Shown here in pieces: positions 3,648 through 13,169 of a stretch of 15,608 bases of DNA (positions within the stretch are counted from its first letter, which is position 1; each line of letters opens with the position of its first letter). A program made the translations under genes and the position numbers. Source of the stretch: Gammaproteobacteria bacterium (GTDB taxonomy: Bacteria > Pseudomonadota > Gammaproteobacteria > J113); contig RFJX01000045.1 in NCBI GenBank assembly GCA_003694425.1, forward strand, positions 1-15,608, given 5' to 3'. The notes beneath the pieces are model-generated. The model made no database searches and was not told where the DNA came from. It was given only the letters and a program-made list of their open reading frames with translations.

Positions 3648-4664
3648 TCAGAAACCGCTGCGAAAGGCAGGGCGCACCGTGGTGGTGCGCAGGAGGGTGA
3701 CACAGCTCAGGAGCAGGAGGGCGGCCACGCCGTTGTGCGCGACCGCCGCCCAAATCGGCAACCCGAGTATCACGTTGGCGATCCCGAGCGAGATCTGCAG
3801 CAGCAGGAAGCCCAGCATGAAACCACCCGTCCGCCGCACCGGGCCATTGCCCCGGCGCAGCGCGGTCAGCGCCACCATGCCCACGACCAGGAGGGTGATC
3901 AGGGCACCGATCCGATGGGTGACGTGGATCGCCGTGCGCGCGGCCAGGTCCAGCACCCCGTATTCGTAATTGACACCGGTCCCGTGCCAGATCCGGAAGC
4001 CCTGGGAGAAGTCCATCTCCGGCCACCACTCTCCCCTGCAGGTAGGGAAGTCCCCGCACACCAGCGCCGCATAGTTGGTACTGGTCCAGCCACCCAGGGC
4101 GATCTGCGCCGCGACCACCAGGAGCGCGAGCAGGGCGAGGGCACGCAGAGACCCCTGTCCCTCTGTCATGCTCAGCGTGCTCCGGCTCAGCTCCCTGCGG
4201 CTGAGGGTCAGCCACCACAGCAGGCTGACCGTGAGCATCCCGCCGAGCAGATGGGCGGTCACGATGGCCGGCATCACCAGCAGGGTGACGGTCCACATCC
4301 CCAGCGCCGCCTGGAACAGGACCACGGCCACCAGCAGGAGATGGAGCAGGTGTCCGCCCTGCAGGCGTCGGCGCAGGCGCCAGTCCATCACCGCCAGGAT
4401 CACGATCAGCAGGCCCAGGGTGCCGGCCAGATAGCGGTGGACCATCTCCTTCCAGGCCTTGCCCGCCTCCAGCGGCCGCTGGGGATGCAGTTCGTTGGCC
4501 GCCGCTATCTCGTGCTCCTCGTCCGGCACCACCATGCGACCGTAACAGCCCGGCCAGTCGGGACAGCCCAGCCCTGCGTCGGAGAGCCGGACATAGGCGC
4601 CCACCACCACGACTACCAGGGCGAGCAGGGTGGTCAGCGTCAGCAACAGTCTGTAGGTATGCAT
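3648..4664 (-). CDS. ctaA: Heme A synthase (CtaA/COX15 family)
   Basis: CtaA oxidises the C8 methyl of heme O to the formyl group of heme A, the cofactor of aa3/caa3 oxidases, in the cytoplasmic membrane. The 338-residue protein has eight predicted hydrophobic helices in two pseudo-symmetric halves. Half one has a cysteine pair C34/C40 (GLGCPDWPGC), the ExxHR motif E73/H76 and H138. Half two has a second cysteine pair C203/C209 and H250 and H310. The four histidines correspond to the two heme sites of the family. The start ATG at 4664 has a GAGGGG Shine-Dalgarno upstream. It is divergent from the COX1-like gene across a 129-base region carrying a perfect inverted repeat. It belongs to the heme A branch together with ctaB further on. 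Confidence 0.95.
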   Translation of the reverse strand: MHTYRLLLTLTTLLALVVVVVGAYVRLSDAGLGCPDWPGCYGRMVVPDEEHEIAAANELHPQRPLEAGKAWKEMVHRYLAGTLGLLIVILAVMDWRLRRRLQGGHLLHLLLVAVVLFQAALGMWTVTLLVMPAIVTAHLLGGMLTVSLLWWLTLSRRELSRSTLSMTEGQGSLRALALLALLVVAAQIALGGWTSTNYAALVCGDFPTCRGEWWPEMDFSQGFRIWHGTGVNYEYGVLDLAARTAIHVTHRIGALITLLVVGMVALTALRRGNGPVRRTGGFMLGFLLLQISLGIANVILGLPIWAAVAHNGVAALLLLSCVTLLRTTTVRPAFRSGF

Positions 4665-4793: not shown

Positions 4794-6116
4794 GTGTATC
4801 TGACCGCACCGCCTCCCGCCTCGCGCCAGCTCGCGTTGCGCTGGCTCCAGCTCGGACTGGCCGCGCTGGTCTTCGCCGGCATCTACGCCATCCTGCTGGT
4901 CAGCTCCCGCACTCCCGGAGTGGCCGAACACCTGCCCTGGCTGGACTTCTTCCACACCGCCCTGGTGGTCCACGTCGATCTGTCGGTCCTGATCTGGTTC
5001 CTCTCGCTCAGCGGAGTGCTCTGGACCTGGGGTTCGGCCGGACCACTGCCGGCCCTCGACCGTCCCGCCCTGTGGCTCGCCGCTGCCGGTACCGCCCTGA
5101 TCGTCCTCTCGCCCTTCACCGGCGAAGGCAAACCCCTGATCAACAACTATGTGCCGGTACTCCAGCAACCGGTATTCCTGGCCGGGCTGGGACTGTTCGG
5201 CGGTGGTATCCTGCTCAAGGGTCTCGCCGCCCTGGCTGCCCGATCCATCGCCCCCGCGCCCCTGGCCATGGGCCTGCGGCTGGCCGCCTTCACCACCCTG
5301 GTCTCGATCCTGCTGCTGCCGGTGTCCCACCTCATGATCCTGCCCCGGGTCGGCGGCGCGGGCTACTACGAGCTGCTGTTCTGGGGTCCGGGCCACGTCC
5401 TCCAGCTCACCCACACCCTGCTCGTGCTGGTGGTCTGGATCGGACTCGCCCCGCTCTCGCCAGGTCCGGCGGGCAGACGGCTGCTCGGCGCGCTCTTCCT
5501 CCTCATCGCCCTGCCGGTAGTGGTCGCGCCGCTGATCTACGGCGCCGGCGGGATAGACGGCGGGGAGTTCCGCAACCGCTTCACCACCTTCATGCGGCAC
5601 GGAGGCCTGGCCAGCCTCCCACTGCTCCTCTATGCCCTGCACCTGTGGTTCCGCCGCCGGGTGGAGGGCGACGCACCGGTGGCTGCCGCGATGCGCGGCT
5701 CCCTGCTGCTCTTTGTCGCCGGCGGGATCCTCGGCTTCATGATCGAGGGGGTGAACGTGGTCATCCCGGCCCACTATCACGGCTCCATCGTGGGCATCAC
5801 CCTGGCCTACATGGGGCTGGCCTATGCCCTGCTGCCACGACTCGGGATACCGCTCACCCTGCCCCGGCTGGCCCGCTGGCAGGCCTGGATCTACACTGTC
5901 GGGCAGCTGATGCACATCTCGGGACTGGCCTGGTCAGGTGGTTACGGGGTGGCGCGCAAGGTCGCGGGCAGCGCCCAGGGCCTGGAGCAGCTCCAGGCGA
6001 TATGGGGGATGAGACTGATGGGCGCCGGGGGCGGGATCGCCATCATCGGCGGGGTCCTGTTCCTGGTGGTCTGCCTCCACGCCCTCTGGCGAGGGCGTGG
6101 TCAGGAGAGCCAGTAG
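4794..6116 (+). CDS. Heme-copper oxidase subunit I-like membrane protein (COX1 family relative)
   Basis: The 440-residue protein has about twelve hydrophobic helices and resembles the heme-copper oxidase catalytic-subunit family. Alignable landmarks are a helix-II-like VVHVDLSVLIWF (H60), a helix-VI-like FWGPGHVLQ (H201), and a helix-X-like PAHYHG with H327 and H329, the His-x-His spacing that ligates the two hemes in CoxA (AHFH). I find no adjacent His-His pair for CuB anywhere; the nearest candidate is R268-H269. The helix VI tyrosine of GHPEVY is also missing. It may therefore bind heme but have an altered or absent CuB site. It is shorter than the CoxA encoded nearby (532 residues). The start is GTG with AGGA about nine bases upstream. 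The gene lies between ctaA (divergent) and ctaB (convergent, 16-base overlap), which hints at a role in heme or oxidase assembly or as an accessory oxidase. Precise function is unknown. Confidence 0.75.
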   Translation: MYLTAPPPASRQLALRWLQLGLAALVFAGIYAILLVSSRTPGVAEHLPWLDFFHTALVVHVDLSVLIWFLSLSGVLWTWGSAGPLPALDRPALWLAAAGTALIVLSPFTGEGKPLINNYVPVLQQPVFLAGLGLFGGGILLKGLAALAARSIAPAPLAMGLRLAAFTTLVSILLLPVSHLMILPRVGGAGYYELLFWGPGHVLQLTHTLLVLVVWIGLAPLSPGPAGRRLLGALFLLIALPVVVAPLIYGAGGIDGGEFRNRFTTFMRHGGLASLPLLLYALHLWFRRRVEGDAPVAAAMRGSLLLFVAGGILGFMIEGVNVVIPAHYHGSIVGITLAYMGLAYALLPRLGIPLTLPRLARWQAWIYTVGQLMHISGLAWSGGYGVARKVAGSAQGLEQLQAIWGMRLMGAGGGIAIIGGVLFLVVCLHALWRGRGQESQ

Positions 6117-7018
6117 CGGATGGCGATGCGGACGTAGTGATCGAGCAGGAGGAAGGCGAACAGGCAGCTCAGGTAGAAGATCGAGTAACCGAAGGTCTTC
6201 ATCGCCAGGGAATCACCCTCCTCCCGGTACAGGCGGATGGCGTACCAGAGGAAGCCGATGCCCAGGGAGATGGCGCCCGATAGATAGATGAGGCCGCTCA
6301 TCCGGGTGAGGAAGGGCAGCAGGGTCACCGAGACCAGCAGCAGGGTGTAGAGGACGATCTGGCACTTGGTGTAGGGCACGCCGTGGGTGACCGGGAGCAT
6401 CGGAAGTCCCGCCCGGGCATACTCGGCCCTGCGGCGTATCGCCAGGGCCCAGAAGTGGGGCGGGGTCCAGACGAAGATGATCAGGAACAGCAGCAGGGCC
6501 TCCTGGGAGACCTCCCCGGTCACGGCGGCCCAGCCGAGTATGGGAGGCGCGGCGCCGGCGGCCCCGCCCCAGACGATGTTCTGCGGCGTGCTCCGCTTGA
6601 GGAAGATGGTGTAGATCACCGCGTAGCCGATCAGCGCGATGAAGGTCAGCAGGGCCGTGAGGGGATTGACCAGCAGGGTCAGCACCACCATCGAGACGAC
6701 CGCCAGGGCCGTGGCAAAGACCAGGGCGCTGCGCTGGGTCAGCCGGGACCTCGGCAACGGCCGGTCCCTGGTCCGCGCCATCAGGGTATCGATGTGGTGA
6801 TCGATGACGTGGTTGAAGGCGGCACCCGATGCCGCGGCCAGACCGATCCCGACCAGCCCGAAGAAGACCCGTGCCAGGTCCATTTCACCCGGTTCCCCTG
6901 CCAGCAGCATCCCGACCAGGGCGGTGAACACGATCAGCGCGACCACCTTGAGCTTGCAGAGCTGCAGATAGGGCCGCCAGCCCTGGGGGAGGGCCAGGGT
7001 TGCACTCATGCCGTTCAT
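6101..7018 (-). CDS. ctaB: Protoheme IX farnesyltransferase (heme O synthase)
   Basis: CtaB (CyoE) transfers a farnesyl group to protoheme IX to give heme O, the substrate of CtaA, in the inner membrane. The 305-residue UbiA-superfamily protein shows the first Asp-rich motif N69-x3-D73-x3-D77 followed by MARTRDRPL (R82, T83, R86, P87). It also has a second family motif (YTIFLKRSTPQN, then GGAAGAAPP) and multiple membrane helices. The ATG at 7018 is preferred over a longer open frame because AAGGAG (7029-7034 on the - strand) lies ten bases upstream. It is the last gene of a leftward SURF1 / SCO-like / ctaB run. Its end overlaps the end of the convergent COX1-like gene by 16 bases. Confidence 0.95.
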   Translation of the reverse strand: MNGMSATLALPQGWRPYLQLCKLKVVALIVFTALVGMLLAGEPGEMDLARVFFGLVGIGLAAASGAAFNHVIDHHIDTLMARTRDRPLPRSRLTQRSALVFATALAVVSMVVLTLLVNPLTALLTFIALIGYAVIYTIFLKRSTPQNIVWGGAAGAAPPILGWAAVTGEVSQEALLLFLIIFVWTPPHFWALAIRRRAEYARAGLPMLPVTHGVPYTKCQIVLYTLLLVSVTLLPFLTRMSGLIYLSGAISLGIGFLWYAIRLYREEGDSLAMKTFGYSIFYLSCLFAFLLLDHYVRIAIRYWLS

Positions 7019-7032
7019 CGTCTCGTCACTCC

Positions 7033-7638
7033 TTACCTCGCCTTGAGCAGGCGCTGGATGTCCTTGAGGATACCCTTTGCCGGGGTCTCCGGTCCATACG
7101 CCATCATCACCTGACCATCCGGATCCAGCAGGTAGATCCGGTCCTTCAGAACGCGCCCCGGGGGCAGGAGCAATCCCGTTGCCTGGCCCTTGCGCGCCGC
7201 GGGCAGGATCACGACCCGCATGCCGGGATAGTCCTTCCGCAGCTCCTCCAGCAGTGCCGGTTGCGGCTCTCCAGAGTACAGCAGCAGCCGCTGAAGGCGG
7301 GCGTAGTCCCTTCCGAGGGCCCGCTGGATCTGGCGCAGATGGAACAGGTTGCTGCGGCAGTTCTGCTCGCATCCCCCCTCGGCAACGGCCATCAGGGTCC
7401 AGCGCCCCTGCCGCAGCCAGTCCGGGGAGAATTCCCTGCCGTCGACTTCCTCCAGCCCTTCGAGCGACCAGGGCCGGGCCGGCACGATCAGCTCCCCGTG
7501 GCCCACCGTCCCCTGCGGCATCCACTCCGGATGCTGCAGCAGCAGCCAGGACCCGATATAGGGCAGGCCGAACAGGAGCAACAGGGCGATCAGCGGCCAG
7601 TGGGCTCTCCTGCGCCGGGTCCCGCTCTCCTCAGCCAT
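7033..7638 (-). CDS. Membrane-anchored SCO-like thioredoxin-fold protein, probable oxidase assembly factor
   Basis: The 201-residue protein has a basic N-terminus, one membrane anchor (about 14-34) and a periplasmic domain resembling the SCO1/SenC fold. It has a CxxxC motif, C90 and C94 in EGGCEQNC, and a LLDPDGQVMMAYGPE strand region like the YLIDPDG segment of SCO proteins. SCO copper chaperones also carry a distal histidine just before that segment. Here the residues are VLKDR, with no His. Copper binding as in Sco1 is therefore doubtful, and a thiol-disulfide role is an alternative. It overlaps the SURF1 stop by eight bases and is 14 bases from ctaB. Equivalent short proteins commonly sit in cox assembly clusters of gammaproteobacteria. 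Family placement is by motif and context. Confidence 0.75.
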   Translation of the reverse strand: MAEESGTRRRRAHWPLIALLLLFGLPYIGSWLLLQHPEWMPQGTVGHGELIVPARPWSLEGLEEVDGREFSPDWLRQGRWTLMAVAEGGCEQNCRSNLFHLRQIQRALGRDYARLQRLLLYSGEPQPALLEELRKDYPGMRVVILPAARKGQATGLLLPPGRVLKDRIYLLDPDGQVMMAYGPETPAKGILKDIQRLLKAR

Positions 7639-8686: not shown

Positions 8687-9583
8687 TCAGATGAGGTAGA
8701 CAAAGGTGAACAGGCCCAGCCAGACCACGTCCACGAAGTGCCAGTACCAGGCCACCGCCTCGAAGGCGAAGTGGTGTTCCGGGCTGAAATGGCCCTTCAT
8801 CGCCCGCAGCAGGATGACGATCAGCATGGTGGCGCCGATGATCACGTGGAAGCCGTGGAACCCGGTCAGCATGAAGAACAGGGAGCCGTAGATCCCGGAA
8901 TTGAGGGTCAGGCCGAGCTCGTGATAGGCGTGGCCATACTCATAGGCCTGGGCGGCGACGAACAGCAGGCCCAGCGTGACCGTCAGGATCAGTCCCAGGA
9001 CCAGCTGCCGGTTGTCCCGCTTCTTCAGGCCCCAGTGGGCCCAGGTCACGGTCGCGCCGGAAGAGAGCAGCAGCAGGGTGTTCAACGCCGGGATACCCCA
9101 TGCCCCCATCGGTTCCTTAACGTCCATGTACTTCTCCGGGGCACCGGCCGCCTGCGCCACGTCCTCCGGCTGGATCGAAAGGGGCCAGGTGAATTTGAAC
9201 CCCTCGTGGAGCATGTTCGACAGGCCCAGCCATCCTTCCCCGCCGAGCCAGGGCCCGGAGATGACCCGGATATAGAACAGGCTGCCGAAGAAGGCCATGA
9301 AGAAGAAGACCTCCGAACCGATGAACCAGATCATCCCCTGACGGAACGACCGGTCCACCTCCTCGTTGTAGTAACCGGACATGCTCTCGTGGATGACGTC
9401 GCTGAACCAGGCGTAGAACAGGTAGATCATGGTCAGCAGGCCGATGATGATGAACAGGCCGCCACCGCCGACGTCATTGACCGTGAGGGCGACCCCGCTG
9501 GTCAGCAGGAGCACGCCCAGGGTCGCCACGATCGGCCAGGGACTGCCCTCCGGAATGTAGTAATGGCCGTCACCACTCGTCAT
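8687..9583 (-). CDS. coxC: Cytochrome c oxidase subunit III
   Basis: Subunit III is the third core subunit of aa3/caa3 oxidases; it stabilises the enzyme and the D proton channel. The 298-residue protein has seven hydrophobic helices. Family landmarks are the early MSGYYNEEVDRSFRQGMIWFIGSEVFFF segment (split here: EVDRSFRQGMI, then GSEVFFF), a WGIPALNTLLLLSSG segment, and the C-terminal FEAVAWYWHFVDVVWLGLF region. The extended loop between the third and fourth helices is usual in gammaproteobacterial CoxC. The ATG at 9583 is chosen: GAGGAGG lies seven to eight bases before it, whereas the GTG at 9589 would touch that ribosome site. It is the last gene of the cox operon, 44 bases after ctaG, and is followed by a strong terminator. 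Confidence 0.95.
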   Translation of the reverse strand: MTSGDGHYYIPEGSPWPIVATLGVLLLTSGVALTVNDVGGGGLFIIIGLLTMIYLFYAWFSDVIHESMSGYYNEEVDRSFRQGMIWFIGSEVFFFMAFFGSLFYIRVISGPWLGGEGWLGLSNMLHEGFKFTWPLSIQPEDVAQAAGAPEKYMDVKEPMGAWGIPALNTLLLLSSGATVTWAHWGLKKRDNRQLVLGLILTVTLGLLFVAAQAYEYGHAYHELGLTLNSGIYGSLFFMLTGFHGFHVIIGATMLIVILLRAMKGHFSPEHHFAFEAVAWYWHFVDVVWLGLFTFVYLI

Positions 9584-9627
9584 GTCCACTCCTCCTCACT
9601 CTAGTATCGTTGTCGTTCATGTCTGTC

Positions 9628-10215
9628 TCAGCCGCTGTCGGCGCGGCTTTCCCCTCCCCTTGCGGCCGTCTGCTCCGGTGCCGTCATCAGCATGTAGGAG
9701 AGCGTCACGACCTTGTACTCCTGCGGCAGCTCCGGGTCGATCACGAACCTGAGCGGCATCTCCCGCGATTCCCGCGGCCCGAGGGTCTGGCGGGAGAAGC
9801 AGAAGCACTCGATCTTGTGCAGATGCCCGGTCGCCTGCCAGGGGGTCACGCCCGGGACCGCCTGGGCGGTGACGGTCTGTCCCTCGTTGTTCGTGGCCCG
9901 GTAGCGAACCTCGTACACCTTCCCCGGATGGACCTCCATGCTCCGGGTGAGCGGCGTCACCTCCCACGGCAGCCCGGTGTTCACCGTGGCATCGAAATAT
10001 ATCCTGACGGTCCGCTGTTCATCGACCCGCCCGGCGAGGGCGCCGGCATCGGCCCTTCTCGCCTGGCCGATGACATTGCTTCCGGTCACCTGGCAGACCA
10101 GCCTGTAGAGCGGCACAAGGGCGAAGCCGAAGGCGAACATCCCCGCCACCAGCGCCCCCAGCACCAGGGAGGTGCGCCGGTTGCGCCGCTCCAGGTCGCC
10201 GCCGGCCCCGGTCAC
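9628..10215 (-). CDS. ctaG: Cytochrome c oxidase assembly protein CtaG/Cox11
   Basis: CtaG (Cox11) is a membrane-anchored periplasmic copper chaperone that delivers CuB to subunit I. The 195-residue protein has one N-terminal helix (about 16-36), the conserved juxtamembrane cysteine C41 in LYRLVCQVTG, and a beta-rich domain with the copper-binding CFCF motif (C137, C139). The family segment LPWEV and the C-terminal MPLRFVIDPELP are also present. The start is GTG at 10215, overlapping the stop of the upstream 44-residue gene by four bases (GTGA) with no clear ribosome site of its own. Translation is therefore probably coupled. It sits between the small gene and coxC, the standard place. Confidence 0.95.
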   Translation of the reverse strand: MTGAGGDLERRNRRTSLVLGALVAGMFAFGFALVPLYRLVCQVTGSNVIGQARRADAGALAGRVDEQRTVRIYFDATVNTGLPWEVTPLTRSMEVHPGKVYEVRYRATNNEGQTVTAQAVPGVTPWQATGHLHKIECFCFSRQTLGPRESREMPLRFVIDPELPQEYKVVTLSYMLMTAPEQTAARGGESRADSG

Positions 10216-10346
10216 GGCAGGTGGTGGCTGAAGTTGTACATGCTCAGCAGCATCAGCCCCACGGCGACGATCCCGAGTGCCCAGGCCAGGCGCAGATTGG
10301 CCCGGCGCAACGCCTTGTCTCTCTCTTCCTGCGTCTTCTCCATCAT
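10212..10346 (-). CDS. 44-residue single-pass membrane protein, probable cytochrome oxidase small assembly protein
   Basis: This short frame begins at ATG 10346 (an ATG at 10343 is equally possible) with GGAGG at 10352-10356 well spaced. It ends in a TGA that overlaps the ctaG GTG by four bases. The product has a charged, basic N-terminal half (MMEKTQEERDKALRRANLR) and one hydrophobic helix (about 20-36), ending in YNFSHHLP. Small proteins of this shape between coxA and ctaG are common in proteobacterial cox operons and have been named cytochrome oxidase small assembly proteins. The ribosome site, coupling and location support a real gene. The function is inferred from context only. Confidence 0.75.
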   Translation of the reverse strand: MMEKTQEERDKALRRANLRLAWALGIVAVGLMLLSMYNFSHHLP

Positions 10347-10397: not shown

Positions 10398-11996
10398 CTA
10401 GCGCACCACCGGCGGGGTGGTGTAGCTGTGGAACGGCGGCGGAGAGGGCAGCTCCCACTCCAGCCCGGTCGTGCCCGCCTTGGCGCCCTCCCAGGGCATG
10501 TCGCCGGCCTTCTCTCCACCCCGGATGCACTTGATCACGATGTAGAGGAACAGCAGGTGCGAGGTGCCGAAGATGAAGGCGCCGATGCTCGAGAGCATGT
10601 TGATCTCGGCGAACTGCGGGCTGTAGTCGACGATCCGGCGCGGCATTCCGGCCAGGCCGACGAAGTGCTGCGGGAAGAAGGTCAGGTTGAAACCGATGAT
10701 GTTCCACCAGAAGAAGATCTTCCCCAGCTTCTCGTCATACATGTGCCCGGTCCACTTGGGCAGCCAGTAGAACACCCCGGCGAACAGCCCGAACAGGGCC
10801 CCCGGAAGCAGGGCGTAGTGGAAATGGGCCACCACGAAGTAGGTGTCGTGGTATTCCATGTCGGCCGGCACCACCGCCAGCATGACCCCGGTGACCCCGG
10901 CGAAGGAGAACATGATGACGATGGAGATGGCGTAGAGCATCGGGGTCTCGAAGGTCATCGCCCCGCGCCACATGGTCATCAGGAAGTTGAGGATCATCAG
11001 CCCCACCGGGATGGAGATCACGATGGTCATGATCATGAAATACTCGGTGGCCAGGGGCGACATCCCGACCGTGTACTGGTGGTGCGCCCATACGATCAGG
11101 CTCAGGGAGAACAGGAAGATCAGCCCTCCCACCAGCGCCTTGTAACCGAACAGCGGCTTGCGCGAGAAGGTCGGGATCACCATGCTCAGCACCCCGATCG
11201 CCGGCAGCAGCATGACATAGACCTCCGGGTGGCCGAAGAACCAGAACAGGTGCTGGAACAGGACCGGGTCACCGCCGCCGGCGGCATCGAAGAAGCTGGT
11301 GCCGAAGTGGCGGTCGAACAGCAGCATGGTTACCCCGCCCGCGAGTACCGGGGCGACGATGATCAGCAGCAGCGCGGTGAACAGCATGCACCAGGCGAAC
11401 ATCGGCATCTTCATCATGGTCATGCCGGGCGCGCGCATGTTGAGGATGGTCACGACGATGTTGATCGAGCCCAGGATGGAGCTTGCCCCCAGCAGGTGGA
11501 TGGCGAAGATGGTGAAGTCCATCCCCATGCCGCTCTGTACCGACAGCGGGGGATAGAGGGTCCAGCCGGTGGTCACCGGCGCGCCGCCGCCCGGCAGGAA
11601 GGGCAGCACCATCGAGGTGAGCAGCAGTGCCGCCGCCGCCGGCAGCAGCCAGAAGCTCAGGTTGTTGAGCCGCGGCAGGGCCATGTCCGGGGCGCCGAGC
11701 ATCATCGGCAGCATCCAGTTGGCCAGGCCCGTGGCCGCCGGCATCACCGCCCCGAAGATCATGATCAGGGCGTGGTCGGTCAGGATCATGTTGTAGATGT
11801 CCGGCTGCATGATCTGCAGGCCGGGCATGAACAGCTCGGCCCGGATCAGCATCGCCAGGGCGCCGCCGGTGAACATCATCACCAGGGCGAAGATCAGGTA
11901 CATCGTACCGATGTCCTTGTGGTTGGTGCTGAACAGCCACCGCTTCAGCCCGCTCGGGGCGCCGTGGTGTTCTTCCGCTACCGCTGTGGTGCTCAT
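10398..11996 (-). CDS. coxA: Cytochrome c oxidase subunit I (A-type), with K-channel Lys replaced by Met
   Basis: CoxA is the catalytic subunit with heme a, heme a3 and CuB, reducing O2 to water and pumping protons. The 532-residue protein has twelve helices. It keeps the heme a ligand H75, CuB ligands H256 (GHPEVY), H305 and H306, Y260, and the helix X pair H391/H393 (AHFHY). D-channel residues are present: N93, D104, N111/N112 and E258. At the position 28 residues after the second His of the HH pair, which is Lys in the K-channel of bovine (K319) and bacterial enzymes, there is M334. Three residues earlier, where Thr (T316) is usual, there is V331. The K-channel Ser after GHPEVY is kept. 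The ATG at 11996 has GAGGAGGAG upstream. It follows coxB by 39 bases. Confidence 0.97.
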   Translation of the reverse strand: MSTTAVAEEHHGAPSGLKRWLFSTNHKDIGTMYLIFALVMMFTGGALAMLIRAELFMPGLQIMQPDIYNMILTDHALIMIFGAVMPAATGLANWMLPMMLGAPDMALPRLNNLSFWLLPAAAALLLTSMVLPFLPGGGAPVTTGWTLYPPLSVQSGMGMDFTIFAIHLLGASSILGSINIVVTILNMRAPGMTMMKMPMFAWCMLFTALLLIIVAPVLAGGVTMLLFDRHFGTSFFDAAGGGDPVLFQHLFWFFGHPEVYVMLLPAIGVLSMVIPTFSRKPLFGYKALVGGLIFLFSLSLIVWAHHQYTVGMSPLATEYFMIMTIVISIPVGLMILNFLMTMWRGAMTFETPMLYAISIVIMFSFAGVTGVMLAVVPADMEYHDTYFVVAHFHYALLPGALFGLFAGVFYWLPKWTGHMYDEKLGKIFFWWNIIGFNLTFFPQHFVGLAGMPRRIVDYSPQFAEINMLSSIGAFIFGTSHLLFLYIVIKCIRGGEKAGDMPWEGAKAGTTGLEWELPSPPPFHSYTTPPVVR

Positions 11997-12035: not shown

Positions 12036-13169
12036 TCAGCGCTGGGCGCCGACATCGGCAGGCTGGACGAGATCGCCGGTATCATTGCCCCACGCGTTGC
12101 GCTCGTAGGTGATCACGGCGGCGATCTCGCCGTCGTTCAGTATGTCACGCCAGGGCGGCATCATCCCGTAGCTGCCGGTACGACCGTTGAGGACGACCTT
12201 GATGTGGCCCTCTACCGGACCGGTCGCCACCTTGCTGCCCTTGAGGGCGGGGAAGACGTTGGGCACCCCCATGCCGTTGGCCTGGTGGCAGGCCATGCAG
12301 TTCTTCTTGTAGACCTCCTCCCCTCTGGCCAGCAGCTCCTCCTTCGACCAGGTCTTGGCGGCGGCCTCGGCGGCGGCGGCGAGTTGCTGTTTCTGCTCCT
12401 CGATCCACTGGTTGAAGGCCTCCTCGCTGACCGCCTTGACCACGATGGGCATGAAGGCGTGGCCACGGCCGCAGTTCTCGGCGCACTGCCCGCGATAGAC
12501 CCCTTCCCTCTTGATGAAGGCCTTGGTCTCGTTGATATAGCCGGGGATCGCGTCCTTCTTGGGCGCCACCTGGGGGACCCACCAGTTGTGGAGGACATCG
12601 GTGGCGGTATTGAGGATGCGGATGTTCTTGTTGACCGGCAGTACCACCGGCTTGTCGACCGAGCGCAGCCAGGGCTCGCCCTGCTTTTCGGCCTCCTCCT
12701 TGGGCAGGAGGGTACTGGTGAAGCGGACCGGCTTCCCATCCACCGTATGGTCGACGTATTCGTAGGTCCACTTCCACTGCGAACCGATCACCTTGAGGGT
12801 GAGGTCGGGCTCGATGGGGGATTCGATCTGGGCGAAGGTCTTGGAGGCCTGACCGGCGATGCTCAGGTCGATGCCGAGGACGATGACCGGCACCACCACC
12901 CAGGACCAGCGGCCCCACCAGCTGTGATGGAACTCCTGGTCGGCCTGGTAGCCCACCGACTTGCGGAAGCGGAAGATGGAGTAGCCGACCACGGCCAGGA
13001 TCACCACCATGATCCAGAAGGCGATCCAGCTGGTCATGTGGTGCAGATGGGTGATCTGTTCGGTCAGATCGGCCGCCGGTTCCGGGAAGTCGAACTTCCA
13101 TTCCGCCAGGGCGGCCCCTGAGATCAGCGACAGGGCCAACCCCGTGCCCGCGCGAAGGGTCTTGGTCAT
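12036..13169 (-). CDS. coxB: Cytochrome c oxidase subunit II with fused C-terminal cytochrome c domain (caa3-type)
   Basis: This subunit accepts electrons and passes them through CuA to CoxA. The 377-residue protein has a signal peptide (1-22, ending in ALA), two membrane helices (about 46-66 and 88-106), and the SQWKWTYEY aromatic electron-transfer segment. CuA ligands are H194 (DVLHNWW), C229, E231, C233, H237 and M240. After an Ala/Glu-rich linker (about 250-275) comes a class I cytochrome c domain with CMACH (291-295) and a YGMMPPW distal-Met segment (M336/M337). The fused heme c defines a caa3-type oxidase. The start ATG at 13169 follows GGAGAGGAGG. It is first in the cox operon. I see no convincing sigma-70 promoter in the 124 bases upstream, which contain only a weak CCCGC/GCGGG hairpin, so transcription may come from further upstream. 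Confidence 0.96.
   Translation of the reverse strand: MTKTLRAGTGLALSLISGAALAEWKFDFPEPAADLTEQITHLHHMTSWIAFWIMVVILAVVGYSIFRFRKSVGYQADQEFHHSWWGRWSWVVVPVIVLGIDLSIAGQASKTFAQIESPIEPDLTLKVIGSQWKWTYEYVDHTVDGKPVRFTSTLLPKEEAEKQGEPWLRSVDKPVVLPVNKNIRILNTATDVLHNWWVPQVAPKKDAIPGYINETKAFIKREGVYRGQCAENCGRGHAFMPIVVKAVSEEAFNQWIEEQKQQLAAAAEAAAKTWSKEELLARGEEVYKKNCMACHQANGMGVPNVFPALKGSKVATGPVEGHIKVVLNGRTGSYGMMPPWRDILNDGEIAAVITYERNAWGNDTGDLVQPADVGAQR

Follow-up and report, generated by a model that had tools for sequence, protein, structure and literature searches.

The oxidase encoded at this locus raises the question of how a proton reaches the active-site tyrosine of an A-family enzyme that is without the Lys and Thr of the K channel. 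The K channel is one of the two entry paths for protons that are regarded as essential in this enzyme family. In the available text of Sousa et al. 2011 (PMC3084760), it figures as a defining part of the A type, with Lys, Thr and Ser given among its constituents. The window, by which we mean the whole 15,608-nucleotide stretch of DNA that was analysed, encodes a member of a natural clade that breaks this rule. A clade that has the D channel, the tyrosine and the metal sites and is without the K path in both subunits offers a way to test which protons truly need that path, and also whether a protonatable residue can move to another subunit. The preliminary description of the window had reported Met and Val in place of the K-channel Lys and Thr of CoxA. 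This observation is confirmed, and in the sequences compared it is larger in extent, including a whole clade and subunit II, in which a new buried acidic residue, D101, may replace the lost K path.

Window CoxA was aligned by phmmer to PDB chains of the Paracoccus enzyme (1ar1) and a plant enzyme (7jro). The gene and its positions of interest are as follows.

10398..11996, minus strand: coxA, cytochrome c oxidase subunit I without the K-channel Lys and Thr (Pfam COX1, 500.9 bits; TIGR02891; PDB alignments)
10995..10997, minus strand: M334, at the position of Paracoccus K354 (codon ATG; PDB alignment)
11004..11006, minus strand: V331, at the position of Paracoccus T351 (codon GTG; PDB alignment)
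11013..11015, minus strand: S328, at the position of Paracoccus A348 (codon; group alignment)
11184..11186, minus strand: S271, at the position of Paracoccus S291 of the K path, retained in the window (codon; group alignment)
11139..11141, minus strand: K286, at the position of Paracoccus L306, at the start of helix VII, which we take to be on the cytoplasmic side (codon; group alignment)
11217..11225, minus strand: E258, the D-channel Glu, and Y260, the active-site Tyr, both intact (codons)

The region of helix VIII aligns without gaps to both chains, as had been claimed for the sequence flanking the two replaced positions, and the ATG and GTG codons read as first reported. In the alignment to Paracoccus subunit I, E258 corresponds to E278 and Y260 to Y280. 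Of the K-channel residues Lys354, Thr351 and Ser291, the first two are thus replaced in the window and the third is present. The possibility that the Lys had moved to a neighbouring position was checked, and a shift within helix VIII is ruled out because residues 314-345 contain no Lys. The predicted model of CoxA had low confidence (mean pLDDT 57) and was not used. Since AAG and ATG differ by a single base, a sequencing error or a misalignment could be suspected, but the chance of either is negligible: the alignment is ungapped, CoxB is altered in step, and none of the 118 readable proteins among the best 120 of 8000 scored CoxA homologues has the Lys. These homologues were read at a fixed offset, which left two unreadable; a one-residue insertion displaces three of the 118, whose printed sequence is also without Lys, and one is a chimaera. 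The commonest pairs at the Thr and Lys positions in the best 120 are V/M (80), V/I (20) and I/M (10).

By kinship, the window CoxA is placed among A-family enzymes, near beta- and gammaproteobacterial members. It scores 665.7 bits against TIGR02891 (CtaD_CoxA), narrowly below the curated cut-off of 670.75, and only 33.9 bits against the ccoN model, which has a cut-off of 583.15. All eight residues of the D-channel set (Y33, N93, D104, N111, S114, S173, N179 and E258) are present by codon, the list (Asp124, Asn199, Asn113, Asn131, Tyr35, Ser134, Ser193 and Glu278) being taken from PMC3084760. Y260, H305 and H306 are also encoded, and the codons agree with the earlier statement that the D channel, the metal-site residues and the Tyr of the GHPEVY motif are intact in the window. 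B- and C-type oxidases have Thr, Ser or Tyr at the K-path positions and no D channel, according to Table 2 in the accessible part of PMC3084760. The K-channel Lys is absent from the B type (ba3) and the C type (cbb3) too; unlike them, the window enzyme has a D channel, and its Lys and Thr positions are hydrophobic. With M334, V331, S271 and a full D channel, it does not have the arrangement of the B type, in which a Thr/Ser/Tyr alternative K channel occurs without a D channel, nor that of the C type, which has Tyr-II, a Ser and a Tyr at the positions of Thr351 and Ser291 and no D channel, as V331, S271, Tyr-I and the D channel are all present. An alternative path like those of B- or C-type enzymes, to which the preliminary description had pointed, is ruled out because neither the Lys nor the Thr position has a polar residue. 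On these sequence features, the window enzyme is an A-family caa3 oxidase by kinship, yet it lacks the K channel by which the type is defined.

The distribution of the enzyme was followed in 369 gammaproteobacterial genomes drawn evenly from the class, of which 258 have an A-family match at E <= 1e-80. Among the matches listed, 15 genomes, including that of the window, have a full-length gene at 73-100% identity, and the next full-length genes are at 66% identity or below, so that there is a clear gap after 73%. The K-channel Lys is absent from the full-length CoxA of all 15. Split genes of the same kind occur in two further genomes (G086 and G232), and the clade without the K-channel Lys is present in at least 17 of the 369 genomes. 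By their sequences, these enzymes, which we call group 1, form a discrete clade and are no local oddity. In six genomes with a full-length group-1 gene, all candidates were scored (G000, G013, G060, G065, G082 and G132); the gene is the sole A-family match at E <= 1e-3 in five of them, and the sixth, G132, has a Lys-bearing A-family enzyme besides. Fourteen of the 15 genomes have one match at E <= 1e-80, at most three candidates having been scored per genome. Named members without the Lys include Thioalkalivibrio sulfidiphilus (P0049), Sedimenticola thiotaurini (P0054) and Inmirania thermothiophila (P0074), which we take to be cultured; if they are, the enzyme could be purified. Four group-1 proteins (P0078, P0085, P0104 and P0112) have a Lys one residue later (VGLMKFNF), and Lys is found at Paracoccus position 355 in about 10% of group 1, not in the window or most members. 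The residue after the CuB His pair, Q307, is Gln in 97% of group 1 and mostly Met in other enzymes; P0112, P0114 and P0116 have Met there, together with a one-residue loop insertion.

Subunit II, which the preliminary description had missed, is changed together with CoxA in the genes compared. Its features in the window are the following.

12036..13169, minus strand: coxB, subunit II, with the CuA residues H194, C229, C233, H237 and M240 and a C-terminal cytochrome c domain
12909..12911, minus strand: R87, at the position of the K-entry Glu (alignment; codon)
12867..12869, minus strand: D101, an Asp in transmembrane helix 2, in the apparent insertion G99-I100-D101 (alignment; codon)

The five CuA residues are at what we take to be the expected positions, and the cytochrome c motif CxxCH lies at residues 291-295. 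The K-entry Glu is presumably E78 of subunit II in Paracoccus numbering; in Rhodobacter, the K-entry residue is named as Glu 101 of subunit II in the available part of PMC8239185. The 189 distinct CoxA segments that were collected include 172 with a parsable CoxB and 16 without a readable one; the CoxB of locus L258, unparsed and outside the 172 pairs, has Glu in its motif. In all 154 Lys-bearing pairs, CoxB has the K-entry Glu, and no acidic residue occurs 3 to 12 positions after the helix-2 Pro. The 18 pairs without the K-channel Lys (hereafter non-K), 14 of group 1 and 4 of a second group described below, never have the Glu (R in 7, Q in 5, T in 4, K in 1 and N in 1) and always have an Asp in helix 2, at +7 from the helix-2 Pro in group 1 or +8 in group 2. 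Non-K genomes beyond these pairs agree, with Ala/Asp in L010, Arg/Asp in L133 and Thr/Asp in L167. Of the best 120 database homologues of the window CoxB, three are of the Glu type; the Asp is present in every one of the other 117, which belong to the clade type (93 by pattern and 24 from printed motifs). Genome G132 has both kinds of operon, each with the matching subunit II: Arg and Asp in L160, Glu and no Asp in L161. The association of Lys with Glu, and of its absence with Asp, is strong but little replicated, because no more than one or two evolutionary events lie behind the 18 non-K pairs.

In a local-pair alignment of the 172 CoxB sequences, the Asp falls within an insertion in helix 2, of 3 residues in group 1 and 5 in group 2, and because of this insertion the exact register of the helix is uncertain. 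When CoxB is modelled by itself (44 sequences, mean pLDDT 80.3), residues 84-115 are predicted to form one helix with D101 in its middle; the most hydrophobic 19-residue stretch of helix 2 is 91-109. Like the A1-type oxidases (Paracoccus and Rhodobacter aa3 and gammaproteobacterial caa3), to which it is related in sequence, the window enzyme has the metal-site residues and the Tyr, a complete D channel, a CuA domain, a fused cytochrome c and an operon order with ctaG, coxIII and SURF1. It differs from them in the replacement of K354, T351 and E78 of subunit II, in the Ser at Paracoccus position 348, and in a CoxB with the Asp and an apparent insertion in helix 2.

A second group of non-K enzymes, in other proteobacteria, came to light among the 80 loci listed by a scan of contigs, which is a biased sample. 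Two of these loci, L045 (labelled Ca. Methylopumilus universalis) and L070 (from a proteobacterial MAG), have L/L where the Thr and Lys would be; L035 and L036 fall in the group of the window. With L070 as the query, the 119 newly listed proteins comprised 97 non-K proteins, 18 with Thr and Lys and 4 unreadable ones; in the best 30 loci of the L070 search that were read, the group-2 kind is present in at least 2 of the 369 class genomes (G054 and G155). A CoxA tree of 81 sequences, calculated without the helix VIII columns and lacking eight loci intended for it, separates group 1 (22 rows, SH-aLRT 100), which sits beside Lys-bearing enzymes, from group 2 (21 rows, SH-aLRT 99, among them P0187, non-K by alignment). 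An AU test on CoxA does not reject a single non-K clade (p 0.36), and when CoxA is combined with CoxB (64 rows), a tree with a single clade scores above the free tree (p 0.79); therefore, the K path appears to have been lost once or twice in the two groups. P0176 and P0178 of group 2 have kept the Thr and are without the Lys, which is possibly an intermediate state. In 104 rows of group 2, including L045 and L070, the position of Paracoccus S134 is Gly in 78%, D404 is replaced by N in 64% and H in 33%, and H464 by F in 97%. Group 2 may for this reason differ beyond the K path.

Conservation in subunit I was read from an alignment of 137 group-1, 104 group-2 and 182 Lys-bearing CoxA sequences. 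The set includes near-duplicates, with the window counted twice (as itself and as L001), and leaves out P0119, P0174, P0210 and 22 loci without a core match. Its percentages are not population frequencies, because the queries enriched non-K sequences. The groups were defined by the Lys column, and the contrast in that column is therefore by construction: group 1 has M in 109 sequences (79%), I in 23 (16%), L in 4 (2%) and V in 1, and group 2 has L in 94% and M in 5%. At the Thr position, all 182 Lys-bearing enzymes have T, group 1 has V (123) or I (14), and group 2 has L (71), V (30), T (2) or I (1). The position of S291, in helix VI, is Ser in all Lys-bearing enzymes; group 1 has G (39%), A (33%) or S (26%) there, and 90% of group 2 have P. 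Every non-K enzyme with a residue at the position of Paracoccus A348 has Ser there, the equivalent of S328; this Ser is not specific to non-K enzymes, because 9% of the Lys-bearing ones also have it, next to A in 90%. At the position of L306, the equivalent of K286, group 1 has K in 58% and H in 14%, and group 2 has K in 51% and R in 37%. N93, D104, N111, N112, E258 and the His pair H391/H393 are 100% conserved in all three sets, and Y260, the equivalent of Tyr280 (Tyr-I, helix VI), is present in 100% of group 1 and 99% of group 2.

The joint loss of the Lys and Thr of subunit I and the Glu of subunit II, with the D channel, the metal sites and the Tyr intact, means that the K pathway has, to judge by the genes, been removed in concert in both subunits and the enzyme kept. 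In the alignments, S328 of subunit I and D101 of subunit II are fixed in the clade of the window, and D101 apparently lies inside the 3-residue insertion. Because the non-K enzyme occurs widely, is conserved and in most of the scored genomes is the only A-family oxidase, it is probably active and turning over normally. We propose, with slightly less than even confidence, that a rebuilt route via D101 of subunit II and S328 of subunit I reprotonates Tyr260. The K-path proton for Tyr260, which belongs to the reductive half of the cycle, would arrive by this route at the interface of subunits I and II. D101 would be the buried protonatable residue in the role of the old Lys, S328 would act as a relay on helix VIII, and the D channel would take the remaining substrate protons and the pumped protons. 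An Asp amid a hydrophobic membrane helix is costly, so that the conservation of D101 suggests that it has a job. It is located 14 residues beyond the old Glu position, which by the arithmetic of helix geometry would place it on approximately the same face and about 20 Å deeper, given the uncertain register. The old K entrance is now neutral or basic (R87, K286), which argues against proton uptake at the same place. More doubtfully, the non-K enzymes might represent a third solution to proton delivery in the A family: the K path of subunit I would have been given up in favour of one built around the Asp that was inserted into helix 2 of subunit II, a change gained once or twice and now fixed in widespread groups of proteobacteria.

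A K path that was either rebuilt or dispensed with in a working enzyme is favoured by the loss from two subunits, by conservation across the clade and by the newly gained, invariant polar residues, and to this extent the earlier suggestion of another proton path holds. If the K path were dispensable, the D channel alone would serve the enzyme, Tyr260 would be reprotonated from the binuclear centre, and D101 and S328 would have functions in packing or redox tuning. The intact D-channel set of the window and the invariance of N93, D104, N111 and E258 in both non-K groups fit such an enzyme, as do the hydrophobic path and the changed entrance, and it is allowed in part by the finding that the first reduction proceeds without the Lys, given in the available text of PMC8079940. 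However, the same text cites a barrier between the end of the D channel and the Tyr, packing fails to explain an invariant Asp in a membrane helix, and the D-channel Ser134 position is mostly Gly in group 2. We consider reliance on the D channel alone the main rival of the rebuilt route, though less likely than it. Alternatively, D101 could be a structural residue or an ion site, in a salt bridge with a lipid or a subunit I residue or in a cation site, and the K-path proton would use waters lined by the backbone and neutral residues. Charges within helices often have a partner, and the non-K enzymes differ at many other positions too, but K286, the sole new basic position flagged in both groups, is at a helix end, and no basic partner in the membrane was flagged, so that a structural or ion-binding D101 is improbable.

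The preliminary description had also considered a specialised enzyme. In such an enzyme, reduction of heme a3 would be limited, and a low-rate or regulated form would work beside a main oxidase such as cbb3. The change of the Lys to Met inactivates model oxidases, and the genome of the window does have a cbb3 oxidase too. Loss of activity on mutating the ends of the channels is likewise described in the accessible portion of PMC8239185. Nevertheless, loss in two subunits, new invariant residues and a wide spread are unlike decay, and a slow accessory enzyme is made less likely by the group-1 gene being the sole A-family match in five of the six fully scored genomes. A specialised or slow enzyme thus fared worse than another proton path, and we judge it very unlikely.

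The rebuilt route that we favour can be set against oxidases with known changes in the K path. Laboratory K-to-M mutants of A-type oxidases have the same change of Lys to Met; there it is the only alteration of the K path, whereas the native enzymes are altered in both subunits. Degli Esposti et al. 2021 (PMC8239418) describe, in the available text, variant K channels among the family A oxidases of archaea and on one hypothesis count seven losses. Some of these archaeal enzymes are alike in that the K channel is not conserved, but they are archaeal and not part of a proteobacterial clade, and the part of PMC8239418 at hand does not mention the subunit II Asp. Proton paths may shift during evolution, according to the accessible part of PMC8239185. 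The proteobacterial group and the subunit II Asp were not found in the literature on absence or loss of the K channel, which was covered mostly at the level of titles and abstracts, outside subscription papers and supplements. In the available parts of papers on symbionts and vents, no evidence for expression of the non-K enzyme was found, and no aa3 oxidase was detected in the metaproteomes of PMC5904459, as far as its accessible text goes. Loss of the K path is already in print for archaeal A-family enzymes, and nothing was found on the proteobacterial group in these partly available sources.

The genes around coxA and coxB in the window include the following.

10215..10346, minus strand: small protein between coxA and ctaG, 44 codons without a stop
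9628..10215, minus strand: ctaG/cox11 (PRK05089, 207.6 bits, above cut-off)
8687..9589, minus strand: coxIII (PF00510)
6101..7525, minus strand: open frame containing ctaB, heme O synthase, from about residue 177-185 (TIGR01473 above cut-off)
3648..4664, minus strand: ctaA/cox15, heme A synthase (PF02628)

The heme A pathway genes ctaA and ctaB are thus in the same window as coxA. Elsewhere in the genome of the window, a heme-copper family protein of 563 residues (L003:1174-2865, minus strand) has FGHSSQQINVAA in place of GHPEVY; it had no match above cut-off among the NCBIfam models. Beside the cox operon of the window, positions 4794-6116 of the plus strand encode a 440-residue protein that is a distant relative of subunit I (PF00115, 50 bits). 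A relative of this protein is found near the cox genes in at least 4 of 14 group-1 loci (L151, L152, L157 and L164), several of the loci ending early.
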